IMG/VR virus record: IMGVR_UViG_3300044712_000171
Location: 1-22,983 of that record
From: a virus
DNA: 22,983 nucleotides
Strand: one strand, 5' to 3'
Shown here: piece after piece, positions 6,530 to 19,273 of the stretch
How the letters are laid out: every line of letters begins with the position of its first letter
Numbering within the stretch: position 1 is the stretch's first letter
Translations under genes and position numbers: made by a program
The notes under the pieces: model-generated
Told to the model about the DNA's origin: nothing
Database searches by the model: none
Seen by the model: the letters and a program-made list of their open reading frames with translations, nothing else

Positions 6530-7330
6530 ATGACCAAATTGCATGTTGTTTTAAGAACTTGTGACACTGCGAGTTTACAATCTAATCGTATCGTTCCTAA
6601 GAATGAATGTATAGTTAGGTGCCTAAACTCGCTAGTTACATCACTTAAAAATTTAAATAGTATGGAGCACACTCTCCATATCATTGATGACAGATCAACC
6701 GATGACACAGTGCAAGCAATTCGCAGAATTGCGCCTAACGCAAGTATTAACTTATTAGGTCAGCGTGATGATTCACAACTGAATCCAAAGCAAAAGTCAC
6801 GGTATAGTGCTAGTAAGGCACTTGAATACATATACAATCTGCCTCAGGACGATTTAGTTTATCTTGTAGAAGATGACTATCTACATTATCCTGATAGCAT
6901 GGAACGAATGATTGAAGCCTATCAGTATTTTGATAGGTATCTTCCAAACGTTGACGTTGGTATATTCACTCAGGACTTTCCTGAGTTGTACGCACATCCT
7001 AGAAATCTGCACAACGATACATATTTCAGAGAATGCTATGTGTTTCCTGGACCAGATAGATATTATAGGACAACGTGGTATACGCATGAGAGTTTCATGA
7101 TTCCAACAAGCGTCATGCACAAGTACAGAATGTTTTTTGATGCATTACTCACGATCGGCGATGAACCTCATCTTTGGGAAGGTAACACAATAAGTAACGT
7201 TTGGGCACAACCCGATGTTACTATGTTGATGCCTATGCGTACATTAGCAATTCATGTAAGCAAGACGGAAGACATTCCATTCTATAACAATGATTTTGAA
7301 ATGTTATGGGAACAAAACAAAATATCTTAA
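6530..7330 (+). CDS. GT2-family glycosyltransferase
   Basis: 266 residues. The N-terminal nucleotide-sugar fold begins LHVVLRTCD. IIDDRSTDDT (51-60) and the metal-binding VEDDYLH (113-119) are the hallmarks of GT-A, family 2 transferases. No membrane segment is seen. It overlaps the next gene (UDP-galactopyranose mutase) by 25 bp, so they are co-translated. The pairing suggests transfer of galactofuranose or a related sugar onto a surface glycan, but the acceptor is unknown. Confidence 0.82.
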   Translation: MTKLHVVLRTCDTASLQSNRIVPKNECIVRCLNSLVTSLKNLNSMEHTLHIIDDRSTDDTVQAIRRIAPNASINLLGQRDDSQLNPKQKSRYSASKALEYIYNLPQDDLVYLVEDDYLHYPDSMERMIEAYQYFDRYLPNVDVGIFTQDFPELYAHPRNLHNDTYFRECYVFPGPDRYYRTTWYTHESFMIPTSVMHKYRMFFDALLTIGDEPHLWEGNTISNVWAQPDVTMLMPMRTLAIHVSKTEDIPFYNNDFEMLWEQNKIS

Positions 7331-8322
7331 TCGTTGGCGCAGGATTCGCTGGCGCAACTGTTGCACGTGAGTTAGCAGTTAATGGTTGTAAAGTTACAGT
7401 TATTGACCAACGCAATCACATAGGTGGCAACGCATACGATTATATCAACGAACACGGCATATTGATTCACAAGTATGGAACACATATTTTTCATACTCAC
7501 AATGAAGTCGTATTTAAATGGGTAAGTCAATTCACTGATTGGGTTGAATACAAACACAAAGTAAAGGCTATGTTACATGACGGTACGTTAGTGACATTTC
7601 CTCCAACATATACGTTTGTAGAACAATATGGATTGAACTATGTCAAAGATACATTCTATGTACCCTACACTAAAAAAATGTGGGGCATAGACCTTCAGGA
7701 CATAGATGACAGTGTAATTCGCAGAGTGTCCATTCGTGAGGATGACACTGATTTATACTTTCCCAATGACACATATCAGTATATGCCTGCAAATGGCTAT
7801 ACGAAAATGTTTGAAAGAATTCTTGACCATGATAACATCACGGTCAAACTGAATACAAAATTTGATAGGTCTATAGAGTCCGAATACAGTCATGTATTCA
7901 ATTCGATGCCTATTGATGTTTATTACGATTACTGTTACGGTGAGTTGCCGTATAGGTCTATCAAGTTTACAACAGTAGACTTGCCCATGCCAAAGTTGTT
8001 TGATTATCCTGTTATCAACTTTACGCACAACGGACCTAATACTAGAATCACTGAATGGAAGAATCTACCTAATCACGGTATGAATGATTCTGTTACATCA
8101 GTAACGTATGAGACTCCTTGTGATTACAAGGACAATGATTACGAAAGATATTATCCTGTTAAGGATAGTGATGGTGTCAATCGTGCTAAATACAAACAGT
8201 ATGCAAACATAAAGAACGACAAAGTTACTTTTATAGGACGTTGCGGAATGTATGTCTACATTGACATGCACCAAGCAATATCTTCAAGTTTGTATATTGC
8301 CCACAGATACATATCTCCTTAG
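7306..8322 (+). CDS. glf: UDP-galactopyranose mutase
   Basis: 338 residues. It converts UDP-galactopyranose to UDP-galactofuranose with reduced FAD. The dinucleotide-binding GAGFAG (11-16), DQRNHIGGNAYD (34-45) and GTHIFHT segment are diagnostic, and VPYTKKMWG is a conserved block of Glf. Length is slightly below the usual 360-390. It starts inside the glycosyltransferase gene and its TAG overlaps tRNA-Trp. The enzyme would supply UDP-Galf to the upstream transferase and so modify the infected cell surface, or decorate the virion. Confidence 0.93.
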   Translation: MGTKQNILIVGAGFAGATVARELAVNGCKVTVIDQRNHIGGNAYDYINEHGILIHKYGTHIFHTHNEVVFKWVSQFTDWVEYKHKVKAMLHDGTLVTFPPTYTFVEQYGLNYVKDTFYVPYTKKMWGIDLQDIDDSVIRRVSIREDDTDLYFPNDTYQYMPANGYTKMFERILDHDNITVKLNTKFDRSIESEYSHVFNSMPIDVYYDYCYGELPYRSIKFTTVDLPMPKLFDYPVINFTHNGPNTRITEWKNLPNHGMNDSVTSVTYETPCDYKDNDYERYYPVKDSDGVNRAKYKQYANIKNDKVTFIGRCGMYVYIDMHQAISSSLYIAHRYISP

Positions 8323-8392: not shown

Positions 8393-8453
8393 AGGATGCG
8401 TTCAGCAACTTATATGCATTTGACTTTTAATCAAAAACGCAAAAAAGCATCCT
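8393..8453 (+). ncRNA. Y-like RNA 1, carries a Lys(UUU) anticodon arm
   Basis: Closing stem AGGATGC (8393-8399) with GCATCCT (8447-8453), then GTC. The 5' strand is followed by GTTCAGCAAC, shared with five other elements. The body is TTTGA-CTTTTAA-TCAAA (8419-8435), with the same loop as the tRNA-Lys at 2856 and a near copy of the anticodon arm of bacterial tRNA-Lys(UUU). GCGTT (8398-8402) could instead pair with AACGC (8436-8440). There is no T arm, D arm or CCA. Probably a small partner of the Ro60-like protein at 14004. Confidence 0.65.
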
Positions 8454-8461
8454 GTCATATT

Positions 8462-8561
8462 GCCCCTATAGCTTAATTGGTAAAGACGCGGCTTTATACT
8501 CCGCCAAAGCAGTGGCCAGATAAGCCACCGTGTGCAGGTTCGAGTCCTGCTAGGGGCACCA
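8462..8561 (+). tRNA. unusual 100-nt tRNA, probably Ile(UAU) with a long variable arm
   Basis: Acceptor GCCCCTA/TAGGGGC is perfect, with T arm GCAGG-TTCGAGT-CCTGC and CCA. Anticodon arm GCGGC-TTTATAC-TCCGC (one C-T mismatch) gives TAT. The variable region contains GTGGC-CAGATAA-GCCAC, a second anticodon-like hairpin (GAT at positions 34-36 if read that way). Alternatively that second hairpin is the real anticodon arm and the first is an insertion between D arm and anticodon arm. Ile tRNAs are normally class I, so either reading is odd. Confidence 0.75.
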
Positions 8562-10840: not shown

Positions 10841-10951
10841 GGGATACATACAGCAAACTACATCAAACGATGTGTTACTGGTTCGAGTCCAGTATTACGC
10901 TTCATGCGTGATTAGCCAAATGGTAAAGGCATTCGTCAAGAAACGTATCCC
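10841..10951 (+). ncRNA. Y-like RNA 3 with a permuted tRNA domain (YrlA-like)
   Basis: Closing stem GGGATAC (10841-10847) with GTATCCC (10945-10951), then GTTT. The shared ATACAGCAAAC follows the 5' strand. Then come hairpin ACATC-AAAC-GATGT, T arm ACTGG-TTCGAGT-CCAGT (10877-10893), a 7-bp acceptor-like stem ATTACGC/GCGTGAT closed by TTCAT, and a Gln-type D arm GCC/GGC (10915-10930). TTCGT (10932-10936) could alternatively pair with ACGAT as an anticodon-like stem. T arm, closed acceptor and D arm in this order is the tRNA mimicry described for bacterial YrlA RNAs. Confidence 0.75.
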
Positions 10952-11049: not shown

Positions 11050-11164
11050 AGGTTCTTTTCAGCAATTTTTATAATCTTTCTGAAAAAAAGAGGGTCCGGG
11101 TTCGAATCCCGGCACTAGGTTGGTCGCTAGTGTAGTGTAATGGCAGCACGAAAAAAGAGAACCT
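11050..11164 (+). ncRNA. Y-like RNA 4, permuted tRNA-Phe mimic
   Basis: Closing stem AGGTTCT (11050-11056) with AGAACCT (11158-11164), then GTT. The shared TTTCAGCAA is followed 18 nt after the stem by a complete Phe anticodon arm TCTTT-CTGAAAA-AAAGA (GAA). Then come GGGT, T arm CCGGG-TTCGAAT-CCCGG, acceptor-like CACTAG/CTAGTG with a short loop, and D arm GTGT-AATGGCA-GCAC. Every arm of a tRNA is present, but the chain is opened between D arm and anticodon arm and the acceptor end is closed, so it cannot be charged. Strong candidate for a Ro60-bound tRNA mimic. Confidence 0.78.
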
Positions 11165-13497: not shown

Positions 13498-13751
13498 GGG
13501 ATGATTGCAGCATTTAAAAATACTTGTAGCAACTAATGCAGTAGAAAGTGGCCCGCAAGGCATAGTGTTCGCACTATTTCTAGGAAACTAGACGCTCATG
13601 GAACTGACGACTTATGGAAAGACATATATGATGTTTGTACAGACACAACACAAACTAGCCAACATGAATGTTGGTATGCGTCTAAGGAACTATATCCGAA
13701 AGGTGACTAGATTAGAGCAGACAGAAAAACTTTATCGGTTCCGAACATCCC
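13498..13751 (+). ncRNA. Y-like RNA 6, about 254 nt, large structured RNA
   Basis: Closing stem GGGATG (13498-13503) with CATCCC (13746-13751), then GTTTAA. TTGCAGCAT after the 5' strand matches the shared motif. The body folds into GCATT/AATGC (13510-13539), ATAGTG-TTCG-CACTAT (13562-13577), TAGACGC/GCGTCTA (13589-13684), CCAACA-TGAA-TGTTGG (13659-13674) and ATCC-GAAA-GGT. Stable UUCG and GNRA loops indicate a real RNA. No tRNA arms are evident. It has its own promoter and lies first of three tandem elements before the Ro60-like gene. Confidence 0.65.
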
Positions 13752-13763
13752 GTTTAACTTATT

Positions 13764-13880
13764 AGGATAGGTTCAGCAAACTTCTAACGGCTAATACCCG
13801 TAACTGATCGATGGACAGCGATAACTTCAAGTCTATCAAAACTGTTTGCTATTTCAGTCAAAAGTGGCACCAACTATCCT
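13764..13880 (+). ncRNA. Y-like RNA 5
   Basis: Closing stem AGGATAG (13764-13770) with CTATCCT (13874-13880), then GTTG. GTTCAGCAAAC follows the 5' strand. Its AGCAAAC (13775-13781) can pair with GTTTGCT (13844-13850). ACGG-CTAATAC-CCGT (13787-13801) sits where other members have an anticodon arm and has a seven-base C-U-N-N-N-A loop. The 3' end abuts the next promoter. Confidence 0.62.
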
Positions 13881-13881
13881 G

Positions 13882-13910
13882 TTGACAAATAAACAAAGCT
13901 GTGTTATAAT
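13882..13910 (+). promoter_or_regulatory. sigma70-like promoter of the Ro60-like gene
   Basis: TTGACA (13882-13887), 17-bp spacer, TATAAT (13905-13910): a perfect consensus, the strongest promoter seen here. The transcript would start within a few bases of Y-like RNA 2. Confidence 0.88.
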
Positions 13911-13918
13911 CATTTTTT

Positions 13919-13979
13919 AGGATGCATTCAGCAACTTTAAAATTTCACTGTAAATGAAACTAAAAGCGCATCCTGTTGC
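13919..13979 (+). ncRNA. Y-like RNA 2 in the 5' UTR, carries a Tyr(GUA) anticodon arm
   Basis: Closing stem AGGATGC (13919-13925) with GCATCCT (13968-13974). ATTCAGCAAC follows, then TTTCA-CTGTAAA-TGAAA (13943-13959), whose loop is identical to that of tRNA-Tyr at 5208. GCAAC (13931-13935) can pair with GTTGC (13975-13979) to form a pseudoknot. It begins at the 5' end of the Ro60-like mRNA and ends about 20 bases before its ribosome site. It could be processed into a free Y RNA or act as an autoregulatory site. Confidence 0.68.
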
Positions 13980-14003
13980 ATAAAATCATAGAAAGGAGAA
14001 CCT

Positions 14004-15428
14004 ATGCAATTCGCAGAAGCAATCAAGAACCAAGAAACTCGTACCACTAACGGTATGAAGGCTCGCAAATCCAGTGCTAACGCATGTGTGGATTTGTTCT
14101 ATAACATCGGTGCAAGCCGTGGCAAGAACATCGTTCCTGCTTTCACTGCGGCTTACGTAGAAAACTCCGATCTGGCTCTCCGTATCGCACAATGGGCACG
14201 TGATGCTCGTGGTGGTTCCGGTGAACGTCAACTCTTCCGTGATATCTTGCAGTATCTGGAAAAGACAAACCCTGAGGATGCTATGCGTCTGATGGCGAAG
14301 ATTCCTGAAATCGGTCGTTACGATGACTTGCTTGTCTTTAAGACTAAGCCTGTCAAAGAAAAGGCATACACCATGCTTGGTGACGCACTGCGTAACCGAA
14401 ATGGTCTTGCTGCTAAGTGGACTCCTCGTAAGGGCGAAGTCGCACGTGAAATCCGTGAATTCTTCGGAATGACTCCTAAGCAATATCGTAAGTCATTGGT
14501 ATCTTTGACCAACGTTGTGGAAACACAAATGTGTGCTAAGGACTGGGACAACATCAACTTCTCACATGTACCTTCAGTGGCACATGCACGTTACAAGAAA
14601 GCGTTTGGTCGTAATGGCACAACTTACGCTGACTATGTAGCTAAGTTGGTGAAGGGCGAAGCTGGCGTTAAAATCAACGCTGGTGCAGTTTTCCCCTACG
14701 ATGTGTTGAAGGGTCGTATCGGTTACGGTACACGCAACATGTCTAAGCAAGAGTTGGATGTTATCCAAGCTCAGTGGGACGCATTGCCTAACTACATTGG
14801 TGACGCTAACGTGTTGCCAATGGTTGACTCTAGCGGCTCCATGACATGTTCTGCTGGTGGTTACAACTCTAAGTCTGGCTTGACTTGCTTAGAAGTTGCA
14901 ATCTCTTTGGGCTTGTACTTCGCTGACAAGAACAAGGGTAAGTTCGCTGATTGTTTCTTGACATTCAGCCGTTCTCCTAAGTTGGTAAACTTGAAGGGTA
15001 ACATCAATCAAAAGATTGATCAAATGAACACTGGTGAAGTTGCTAACACCAACTTGAACGCGGCATTTGACTTGATCTTGAAGACAGCGAAGGACAACAG
15101 TGTTCCTCAAGCAGAAATGCCTGAAACATTGGTGATCTTCTCTGACATGCAGTTTGATGGTGCAGTAGACGGCAAGGACGAAAGTGCTATCAAGATGATG
15201 GAACGCAAGTACGCGGAAGCAGGTTACACTCTTCCAAAGGTTGTGTTCTGGAACTTGAACGCCGCATACGGCAACACTCCTGTCAAGTTTGACAAGGTTG
15301 GTACTGCAATGGTCTCTGGTTTCAGCCCTGCTGTTGCCGGTGGTATCTTGAGCGGTAGCATGGATGACTTCACCCCAGAAGCTATCATGTTGAAGACTGT
15401 CATGAAGGATCGTTACGATCTTGCTTGA
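14004..15428 (+). CDS. Ro60-like TROVE/vWA RNA-binding protein (DUF2828-like)
   Basis: 474 residues with GAAAGGAG ribosome site. The N-terminal ~260 residues have the repeat-rich pattern of TROVE/DUF2828 proteins: LRIAQWARDARGGSGERQLF (59-78), AKWTPRKG (137-144), VVETQMCAKDW (171-181), FSHVPSVAHARYKKAF (186-201). The C-terminal vWA domain has MIDAS DSSGS (275-279) and FSDMQFD (379-385). Ro60 rings bind the ends of misfolded RNAs in the central hole and Y RNAs on the outside. In bacteria they work with PNPase or repair proteins. Codons are strongly biased to GC-ending and common ones compared with neighbours, as in highly expressed genes. Three Y-like RNAs precede it. DUF2828 and TROVE are related families, and which fits better cannot be settled here. 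Confidence 0.85.
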   Translation: MQFAEAIKNQETRTTNGMKARKSSANACVDLFYNIGASRGKNIVPAFTAAYVENSDLALRIAQWARDARGGSGERQLFRDILQYLEKTNPEDAMRLMAKIPEIGRYDDLLVFKTKPVKEKAYTMLGDALRNRNGLAAKWTPRKGEVAREIREFFGMTPKQYRKSLVSLTNVVETQMCAKDWDNINFSHVPSVAHARYKKAFGRNGTTYADYVAKLVKGEAGVKINAGAVFPYDVLKGRIGYGTRNMSKQELDVIQAQWDALPNYIGDANVLPMVDSSGSMTCSAGGYNSKSGLTCLEVAISLGLYFADKNKGKFADCFLTFSRSPKLVNLKGNINQKIDQMNTGEVANTNLNAAFDLILKTAKDNSVPQAEMPETLVIFSDMQFDGAVDGKDESAIKMMERKYAEAGYTLPKVVFWNLNAAYGNTPVKFDKVGTAMVSGFSPAVAGGILSGSMDDFTPEAIMLKTVMKDRYDLA

Positions 15429-15690: not shown

Positions 15691-16362
15691 ATGAAACGTG
15701 TAATTGAGATTAGAGCCGCAGAAGGCGGCGATGACAGTAAGTTGTTTGTAAAAGATTTAGCGAAGTCTTACATTCGCATGGCTAGCAAGCTCGGCTGAAC
15801 TACCCGCCTGATAAATGAGTATCAAGGCGAAATCCATCTAGAGATAGAGGGTACTGATTTATCCGGCTTATACAACGAGTCAGGAGGACACCGAATACAG
15901 CGTGTGCCTCCAACAGAGCGAAAGGGACGAGTGCATACAAGCACAGTCACAGTCGCTGTTATTGACCCTGCTGAAATCAAAACAACTATACAACAAAAAG
16001 ACCTTAGAGTTGAGTGGTATAGTGGCACTGGAGCAGGAGGTCAACATCGTAACAAGCATCAAAACAGTTGCAGAATAACACACATACCAAGTGGCGTTGT
16101 TGCAACGGCACAGTGTCGCAGTCGTGAGAATAGCTACAATGAAGCATTGAATGCAATACAGGAACGTGTTGACAACAATACCCAAACAGTGTACAATGAC
16201 GCAGTAGCTAGTGATAGAAAGAAACAAGTTGGTTCTGGCATGCGCGGTGACAAGATTCGCACATATCGTTTCCAAGATGATAAAGTTCAAGATCACTTAA
16301 CTGGTAAAGTTGCCAATGCTACAAAAGTGTTAGCTGGCAACTTTGATTTACTTTGGAGATAA
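15691..16362 (+). CDS. short RF1-like release factor with in-frame UGA at codon 36
   Basis: One reading frame of 223 codons is broken only by TGA 15796-15798. Upstream it encodes MKRVIEIRAAEGGDDSKLF, the start of release-factor domain 2. Downstream it continues without frame change into SGGHRIQRVPPTERKGR (PxT at 73-75, the RF1 codon-recognition motif) and GTGAGGQHRNKHQN (GGQ at 116-118, peptidyl-tRNA hydrolysis). Domain 1 is absent, so it is a short RF, comparable in size to PrfH-type repair factors. The UGA falls after SKLG, where RFs usually have Trp or another aromatic. It may be translated by UGA readthrough as Trp, or be a nonsense mutation. A good ribosome site precedes ATG 15691. Confidence 0.8.
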
Positions 16363-18036: not shown

Positions 18037-18501
18037 ATGGCTAAGTGTTATCAATTAGTTGGCGTGCCGGGTTCTGGTAAATCTACATGGATTCAGAATC
18101 AAGAGTGGGCAAAGGATTGTGTGGTTGTCAGTACAGATGCCTTTGTTGAAAGATACGCTAAAGAGCAAGGACTAACTTATAACGAGGTCTTTAATGATTA
18201 TATGCATAAGGCGGTAATCTTAATGGCTAAGCAAGTAGTAGAAGCCCGCGAAGCAGGCAAGGACATTATCTGGGATCAGACCTCTGTCTCTGCAAAGAGC
18301 CGCACAAAGAAGTTTAACATGCTACCGGATTATGAGCATATTGCTGTAGTGTTTGCCACTCCTGAGAAAGAAGAATTAGATCGCCGTTTGGCAAGTCGTC
18401 CTGGAAAGAATATTCCAGACGGTGTTATGCGTAGTATGATCGAGAATTTTGAAATCCCTACTGAGGACGAAGGCTTCAAGGAGATTTGGTTTGCGAGTTA
18501 A
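18037..18501 (+). CDS. P-loop kinase, polynucleotide-kinase-like (AAA_33)
   Basis: 154 residues. GVPGSGKST (9-17) is the Walker A loop. VVVSTDAF (29-36) supplies the acidic residue expected of a 5'-OH kinase (Asp34). IIWDQTSVSAKSRTKK and RPGKNIPDGVMRSM resemble the strand and lid of the T4 Pnkp kinase domain (SDTNLN..., VPIDVLRSM). The phosphatase half of T4 Pnkp is missing, but two phosphatase-type genes lie just upstream. Likely role: 5'-phosphorylation of cleaved RNA before ligation by the ligase at 19786. A small-molecule or toxin-type kinase is the alternative. Confidence 0.75.
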   Translation: MAKCYQLVGVPGSGKSTWIQNQEWAKDCVVVSTDAFVERYAKEQGLTYNEVFNDYMHKAVILMAKQVVEAREAGKDIIWDQTSVSAKSRTKKFNMLPDYEHIAVVFATPEKEELDRRLASRPGKNIPDGVMRSMIENFEIPTEDEGFKEIWFAS

Positions 18502-18682
18502 ACTAACTGCATACGAACGTATTAGTCTAAAATTACTGAAAGGCCAGCCCAAAGCGAAACCCTTTGGTAAACTGATCGGTAATACTTTTGTTACTGGAAC
18601 TCAAAGTCTGCATTGGACAAAACAGTCTAGGACTTGGAGACTTTTCTGGAGACTGAAACAAAATCGTATGCCCAAAATTTGA
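18491..18682 (+). CDS. 63-residue basic protein, TTG start
   Basis: AAGGAG (18478-18483) is spaced seven bases from TTG 18491, which makes TTG a better start than the in-frame ATG at 18449 inside the kinase gene. The protein is very basic and Trp-rich (SLHWTKQSRTWRLFWRLKQN), suggesting nucleic-acid or membrane contact. Its stop lies in the -35 box of the next promoter. No family recognised. Confidence 0.55.
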   Translation: MRVKLTAYERISLKLLKGQPKAKPFGKLIGNTFVTGTQSLHWTKQSRTWRLFWRLKQNRMPKI

Positions 18683-18707
18683 CAATAAATCGTTTTGGGC
18701 ATATAAT
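18679..18707 (+). promoter_or_regulatory. sigma70-like promoter with palindrome
   Basis: TTGACA (18679-18684), 17-bp spacer, TATAAT (18702-18707), followed by AATACATGTATT over the start site, as at the tRNA promoters. Confidence 0.9.
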
Positions 18708-18736
18708 ACATGTATTGATTGATTAAAGGAGTGAGC

Positions 18737-19273
18737 ATGGAAGGTTTCACAATGCAACTTGATAGCGTGGATATCGTGCATAAGGCACAAGTCTATGCCA
18801 TGGCTGCTCACGCCGCAGTCCAACAAAAGCGTAAGTACACTGGTCAGCCCTACATTGTTCACCCTGCTGAGGTCGCAAGTATCGTAGCAAGTGTACCTGG
18901 TAGTACTCCTGACATGGTAGCTGCCGCTTGGCTTCACGATGTTGTGGAAGACACTGGTTGCACTTACACTGACATTCACCTTGCTTTTGGTGCTGACATT
19001 GCCGCCCTTGTTGGTTGGCTTACTGATGTGAGCAAGCCCGAAGATGGCAACAGAGCAAAGCGCAAGGCAATGGATCGTGAGCATACTGCACAGGCACCTG
19101 CTGAGGCACAGACGATCAAACTTGCTGACCTTATCAGTAACAGTAAGTCTATCATGGAACATGACCCTGAGTTTGCTAAGACTTACCTCGAAGAAAAGCG
19201 TATGCTCCTCGAAGTGATGACTAAAGGTGACCGAGGTCTTCACGCTGAGGCAAGCAAGTATGTTGGAGTTTAA
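18737..19273 (+). CDS. (p)ppGpp hydrolase, MESH1/SpoT-HD-like
   Basis: 178 residues from ATG 18737, five bases after AAAGGAG. The HD-domain ligands of the SpoT family are present: YIVHP (His42), AWLHDVVEDT (His67-Asp68, Glu71-Asp72) and KLADLISN (Asp131, Asn135). There is no synthetase domain, so it is a small alarmone hydrolase. It would remove ppGpp and relieve the stringent response during infection. It is first in the operon that leads to the RNA ligase. Confidence 0.87.
   Translation: MEGFTMQLDSVDIVHKAQVYAMAAHAAVQQKRKYTGQPYIVHPAEVASIVASVPGSTPDMVAAAWLHDVVEDTGCTYTDIHLAFGADIAALVGWLTDVSKPEDGNRAKRKAMDREHTAQAPAEAQTIKLADLISNSKSIMEHDPEFAKTYLEEKRMLLEVMTKGDRGLHAEASKYVGV

Follow-up and report, generated by a model that had tools for sequence, protein, structure and literature searches.

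The closest described relatives of the system reported here are the ribonucleoproteins formed by Ro60 proteins and Y RNAs. Ro60 proteins take up Y RNA on the outside of their ring and RNA ends in its channel. In vertebrates, Ro60 binds Y RNA at a bulged helix of seven base pairs, and in Deinococcus, the mechanism by which Rsr, a Y RNA, and polynucleotide phosphorylase (PNPase) act together is known (PMC4726728). YrlA, a bacterial Y RNA whose partner Rsr belongs to Pfam TROVE, has its ends joined by a protein-binding stem and contains a T-arm, a closed acceptor hairpin, and a D-arm of transfer RNA (tRNA) type, and the idea that a tRNA-like domain of a Y RNA could inhibit an anticodon nuclease has been put forward (PMC7790460). 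Phage Y RNAs have been suspected before: according to the accessible text of the report on Listeria phage CKA15, purified virions contained the DUF2828 homologue CKA15_055 (20 peptides, 57% coverage), and its gene is preceded on the same strand, at a distance of at most 2 kb, by three highly transcribed non-coding regions that the authors take as possible Y RNAs (PMC12282133). Here, we describe a family of RNA elements in a 22,983-base viral fragment (IMG/VR record IMGVR_UViG_3300044712_000171; hereafter the window), where six of them occur together with the gene of a DUF2828-type protein (14004-15428, + strand). They are best read as a variant of the Ro60/Y RNA system, and we consider it probable that they encode Y RNA-like particle RNAs with tRNA-mimic modules, bound by the Ro60-fold DUF2828 protein; this assessment applies to the particle and its modules, not to the decoy role considered further below.

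The elements were searched for with a script requiring a 7-base 5' strand, three bases, CAGCA, a complementary 3' strand forming at least 6 pairs, and GT. Exactly six matches were identified on the + strand of the window and 0 on the - strand, where a first-order Markov model predicts 0.3 for each; these are the six that the preliminary description, made from the bases of the window alone, had listed. A 61-nucleotide (nt) element lies between tRNA genes (8393-8453; 7-bp terminal stem, GTT, CAGCA, and GTC after the stem), followed by elements of 111 nt (10841-10951) and 115 nt (11050-11164), and three more precede the DUF2828 gene: a long one of 254 nt (13498-13751), a second of 117 nt (13764-13880), and a short one of 56 nt directly before the gene (13919-13974). 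The gene's Shine-Dalgarno sequence, AGGAG, is found at 13994-13998, and all of these features are on the + strand. No further strong elements were found in the window by a covariance model run without filters. Elements usually start with [A/G/T]G(G), the first base pairing with the base immediately before GU. The stem lengths of 6-7 bp given earlier hold overall, with the 13498 stem having 6 bp and A/A at position seven; of the motif thought to be fixed inside the 5' strand, only CAGCA is kept, the three bases before it being loose (NTN is common, and AGA, TAA, and GCT are also found in relatives).

The family extends well beyond the window, into many tailed phages. In 80 viral contigs where the 14004 gene has a close homologue (67-92% identity), 266 elements were identified on the gene strand and 17 on the opposite strand, and in a second set of annotated phages, with homologues 31-48% identical, the element lies beside the DUF2828 gene or within a tRNA array; these include mycobacteriophage MsGreen, with three tandem elements after its gene 54, and Synechococcus, Cronobacter, Pseudomonas, Bacillus, Enterococcus, Staphylococcus, and Listeria phages. 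With the motif fixed beforehand (6-bp stem, 4 nt, CAGCA, closing strand, and GU), 144 new held-out loci around divergent DUF2828 genes contained it 272 times on the gene strand and 19 times on the other, many of these loci being related, so that the counts cannot be taken as independent. When the CAGCA letters were put into the 29 other possible orders, 5-45 matches resulted in the same loci, other spacings gave 21-50, and elements accompany the DUF2828 gene in 103 of the 144. The covariation noted among the six elements was thus borne out in a far larger set. In an alignment of 60 diverse short elements, pair counts for the first six stem positions are circular because pairing had served for selection, and the independent support comes from the inner helices and the unselected seventh pair, which is paired in 60/60 elements with three pair types and 29 double changes.

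A covariance model built from these 60 elements (R1) had matches in 13 of 17 DUF2828 phage genomes (best E values 1e-9 to 3e-4; 7 of the positive genomes are absent from the training set) and in 0 of 4 phages lacking DUF2828 (T4, phiKZ, SPO1, and G1), the hypergeometric probability of zero matches in those four being approximately 0.012. KVP40, at first chosen as a DUF2828-free phage, has both a DUF2828 gene and an element. The search therefore ties the RNAs to DUF2828 genes in phages of many hosts, as the preliminary description had anticipated. Like Y RNAs, the elements have paired 5' and 3' ends, with protein binding of the stem predicted, and are encoded together with a Ro60-type protein (13/17 vs 0/4 genomes; 103/144 loci). 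The protein family itself was found in 682 of 50,697 phage records, where it is often annotated as hypothetical. Vibrio phage pir03, for which a Ro60-like protein has been reported, had neither a TROVE match nor an element and is an uninformative case. As far as the searched literature tells, the RNA family is previously undescribed; no description was found, with most subscription papers lying outside the search.

The product of the linked gene (474 aa) matched DUF2828 (PF11443, 1e-24), DUF7788 (PF25043, 3e-40), and VWA_2 in a Pfam scan, in agreement with the DUF2828-type assignment made earlier. The same scan gave no match to TROVE (PF05731), and the protein is therefore filed as a Ro60-fold DUF2828 protein rather than as a TROVE family member; of the original TROVE/von Willebrand factor A (vWA) label, the vWA part with its metal-ion-dependent adhesion site (MIDAS; DSSGSM) and the predicted Ro60 fold remain. 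A sequence search of the PDB returned nothing relevant. An AlphaFold model from 39 homologues (mean predicted local distance difference test score 86.9, predicted template modelling score 0.87) suggests the full Ro60 fold, a helical-repeat ring plus a vWA domain. The top four Foldseek matches of this model were a TROVE crystal structure and the human autoantigen Ro60, and VIA-align gave Z 21.5 to Xenopus Ro with Y RNA (1yvp; 411 residues, root-mean-square deviation 3.9), 16.9 to 9kop, 15.4 to phage phiLo Ro60, and 11.9 to Deinococcus Rsr. The DxSxS residues of the MIDAS (D275, S277, and S279) are invariant in the 39 homologues. The predicted protein thus resembles the TROVE plus vWA proteins of the Ro60/Rsr type, including Thermus phage phiLo Ro60 (PDB 9l5y), in fold over nearly the whole chain and in its MIDAS, whereas identity is 12-14% and Pfam places it in DUF2828/DUF7788. 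The terminal module of the phage RNAs is similar in size to the vertebrate Ro60 site.

Inside the terminal stem, many elements carry parts of tRNA. In long elements, 10841 and 11050 among them, a T-arm, a loop-closed acceptor-like hairpin, and a D-arm are present in circularly permuted order. In the elbow-type 10841 element, these are located at 10877-10893, 10894-10912, and 10915-10930, respectively. The 11050 element has an anticodon-type hairpin (11075-11091, loop CTGAAAA) before its T-arm (11096-11112), acceptor-like hairpin (11113-11132), and D-arm (11135-11149), and therefore reads as a whole circularly permuted tRNA, opened at the junction of D-arm and anticodon arm and joined there to the terminal stem. 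RNAalifold of 18 long elements predicted the helices of the T-arm, acceptor, and D-arm; of 20 pairs, among them the selected closing pairs, 15 show double changes. T-arm hairpins were found in 77 of 203 long elements vs 0.09 in dinucleotide shuffles. Short elements favour seven-base loops over other loop sizes and often show an anticodon-arm pattern (5 bp, 7-nt loop, U33, and purine-37), which was present in 30/77 of the first set (null 1.1, maximum 5 of 500 simple shuffles), in 22/92 of the held-out set (null 1.3, maximum 7 of 300 dinucleotide shuffles), and in 99/359 non-redundant elements overall. The commonest triplets were UGU (16), UUU (14), UCU (10), GUA (6), and GAA (6), several of them occurring in different stems. 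The 8393 element is of this kind, its inner hairpin (8419-8435, + strand; TTTGA-CTTTTAA-TCAAA) resembling the anticodon arm of tRNA-Lys(UUU). An anticodon-arm reading of every short element was rejected, and that of the 13919 element's hairpin (13943-13959, + strand; loop CTGTAAA) is uncertain, because copies just before the gene mostly carry other loops. The 13498 type has a conserved structure of its own, with double changes in 19 of 34 pairs; an RNase P-like identity was rejected because it had no Rfam match, and the inner module of 13764 has no assigned identity.

The T-arm, closed acceptor hairpin, and D-arm of 10841 and 11050, with covariation in the 18-element alignment, correspond to the inner module of YrlA. 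Assignment of the window elements to Rfam YrlA or Y_RNA was rejected on zero matches (none to YrlA, RF02553, up to E 5), and elements of Enterococcus phage EA1 matched RF02553 at E 3e-9, with 45.9 and 35.8 bits against a gathering score of 69; the EA1-type match covers the tRNA-like inner part, not the ends. The phage ends carry CAGCA and GU in place of the YrlA terminal stems, several RNAs occur per phage, the partner is DUF2828 in place of TROVE, and many phage elements have an anticodon arm, whereas the RF02553 consensus has none. Entries annotated as tRNA-Pseudo or tRNA-OTHER a few kb from the DUF2828 gene in Citrobacter phage Ci1, Cronobacter phage S13, and Aeromonas phage Ahp1 (loci L083, 9994-10107; L086, 8002-8114; L088, 10322-10435) may be mis-called tRNA-mimic RNAs of the CAGCA family.

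Promoter placement points to transcription from the elements themselves. A promoter-like site (at most 3 mismatches, within 60 nt upstream) was identified for 194 of 527 elements, compared with 121 of 1210 random 60-mers, and the distance from the -10 box to the element start peaks sharply at 8 (57 elements) and 7 nt (14 elements), together 71 of the 194, which is the placement expected for a transcription start at the first base of the stem. In the window, a perfect consensus promoter (TTGACA-N17-TATAAT; 13882-13910, + strand) ends 8 nt before the 13919 element, which would put the transcription start at or near the first base of that element. The commonest spacing of tandem copies is 9-10 nt, which suggests processing. 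In CKA15, three elements (25552-25290, minus strand of OR088597.1) lie in the unannotated gap directly upstream of the homologue gene; a correspondence between them and the three transcribed regions is not stated in the accessible text (PMC12282133). That report concerns the same protein family and highly transcribed upstream non-coding RNA, and its accessible text does not contain a sequence family, a structure, tRNA mimicry, or spread to other phages. In Listeria phage LMTA-34, a match to ROOL RNA precedes the DUF2828 gene (L098, 4464-5015; L263, 2696-3247), and a CKA15 stretch 98% identical to it covers the most transcribed CKA15 region given in the accessible text (26236-26727); scanning CKA15 itself against Rfam gave no ROOL match despite this identity.

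The terminal module also resembles that of Class I RNA of dictyostelids, outside which no Class I RNA has been found (PMC7919456). The 2 share a short covarying terminal stem with an A-G start and a C-U end followed by GU, CAGCAA 3-4 bases inside the 5' strand, a variable middle, and a length of approximately 60 nt (short elements only), and they align in the common order of stem, short linker, CAGCAA, variable middle, stem, and UG. The Rfam Class I model (RF01414) reached per-genome E values down to 1.4e-5 in DUF2828 phages, and 12 of 13 matches with E < 0.01 fell on CAGCA elements. The amoebal linker is one base longer, the organisms belong to another domain of life, and scores are below the cut-off (best 34.5 bits, gathering 41.5; 25.0 bits for the 13919 element). 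In addition, T4, which is element-free, has one match at E 0.0024; therefore, weak scores alone prove nothing, and the 25-bit match in the window is not proof. The likeness could reflect either common descent or convergence on a similar protein site. A speculative extension, which we regard as rather doubtful, is that Class I RNAs form one family with the phage RNAs and the Y RNAs of a DUF2828 branch of Ro60, the phage particle being an anti-defence device, perhaps virion-borne, that shows tRNA parts to tRNA-cutting enzymes.

The proposal of a new Y RNA subclass paired with a DUF2828-type protein is supported in outline by the covariation, the gene link, and the predicted Ro60 fold; the tRNA-mimic inner modules, the promoters at start sites, and the Class I-like terminal module go beyond the preliminary description. 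We infer protein binding, particle formation, and decoy function as follows. A terminal module of about 7 bp joining the ends, with 3 unpaired bases and CAGCA on its 5' side and GU after the 3' strand, would be the common part and the most likely binding site of the Ro60-fold DUF2828 protein. The inner modules would be exchangeable, many of them imitating tRNA as an anticodon arm alone, an anticodon arm plus T-arm, or a whole circularly permuted tRNA, and the resulting particle would show these parts to tRNA-acting enzymes, a surface that the varied tRNA-like middles suggest. Tentatively, we place first a decoy role, in which the RNAs would divert anticodon nucleases of the host and similar defences directed at tRNA; the several anticodon triplets, the tRNA-rich genomes, the nearby Rnl1-type ligase, and the virion-borne homologue fit such an anti-defence role without showing it. 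The next most likely role would be the tethering of RNA repair or decay enzymes. Several observations count against our interpretation. Most short elements and the 13498 and 13764 types have no recognised tRNA part; YrlA is reportedly not cut by the Salmonella anticodon nuclease (PMC7790460); coordinates of two of the three CKA15 regions are not in the accessible text (PMC12282133). Further, R1 had no match in four DUF2828 phages (Enterococcus phage EA1, which has long elements, a Felix O1-like Salmonella phage, Campylobacter phage QDYZ, and Lak-B2), and the elements of Xanthomonas phage XaC1 are approximately 200 kb away from its DUF2828 gene. The XaC1 elements are clustered, five in 1.5 kb (L254, 328400-329900), with two Lys-type anticodon arms and one permuted tRNA.

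A Deinococcus-like ribonucleoprotein, in which an exonuclease, for instance PNPase of the host, is linked to the Ro-like protein through the Y RNA so that structured RNA is degraded or remodelled, with the tRNA-like module serving only as a docking surface, is a possible though not favoured reading. It has a mechanism known from Rsr, Y RNA, and PNPase (PMC4726728), the same predicted protein fold, and, in the accessible text, the proposal of the CKA15 authors (PMC12282133) on its side, but it leaves the variety of inner modules and the anticodon arms with different triplets unexplained. The 13919 copy, which ends 29 nt before the start codon and follows the consensus promoter, would also be an mRNA leader, and the DUF2828 protein could bind it and repress its own gene, other copies being by-products; we think this improbable, since most copies are elsewhere, among tRNA genes or far off, and some of these have their own promoters and different inner modules. 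Location in tRNA arrays and the T-arms and anticodon arms inside could also point to worn-out tRNA genes or chance products of the array, for which the covarying terminal stem, the CAGCA at fixed spacing, the co-occurrence with DUF2828 genes in unrelated phages, and the permuted arm order with compensatory changes leave very little room. Just as slight is the chance that the elements are DNA sites, such as recombination sites of a cassette system, where a GTT triplet also occurs: short inverted repeats, a conserved GTT, and variable cargo would fit this, but promoters are positioned to start transcription at the element, the inner modules fold as conserved RNA with compensatory changes, and the linked gene encodes a predicted RNA-binding fold.

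Other genes of the region were also annotated. A T4 Rnl1-type RNA ligase (PF09511; 19774-20688, + strand) is a possible functional partner of the particle, and a P-loop kinase (AAA_33) and an HD-domain protein lie between it and the DUF2828 gene (18037-19273), possibly forming an RNA repair neighbourhood. A release-factor-like gene with a GGQ motif (15692-16362) has an in-frame TGA at the position following K/L-G, where Trp would be expected; 2 relatives (L005 and L063) share this TGA, which may therefore be read through, although the DUF2828 gene itself terminates with TGA. The window has 22 tRNA calls by ARAGORN, with a UDP-galactopyranose mutase gene (GLF, 7306-8322) inside the phage tRNA array and a tRNA-like gene at 8462-8561 whose anticodon region is long and whose anticodon was called, oddly, with four bases (ctcc). 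Near DUF2828 genes, a tmRNA gene was identified in Enterococcus phage EA1 (L096, 2252-2602) and a permuted tmRNA in Synechococcus phage BUCT-ZZ01 (L085, 1771-2067).

The family described here defines a widespread candidate RNA partner for the DUF2828 protein family. The likeness to dictyostelid Class I RNA would also point to a candidate kind of protein partner for those RNAs. Our results further suggest that phage genomes include series of tRNA mimics, some partial and others permuted, with which phages may respond to defences that cut tRNA.
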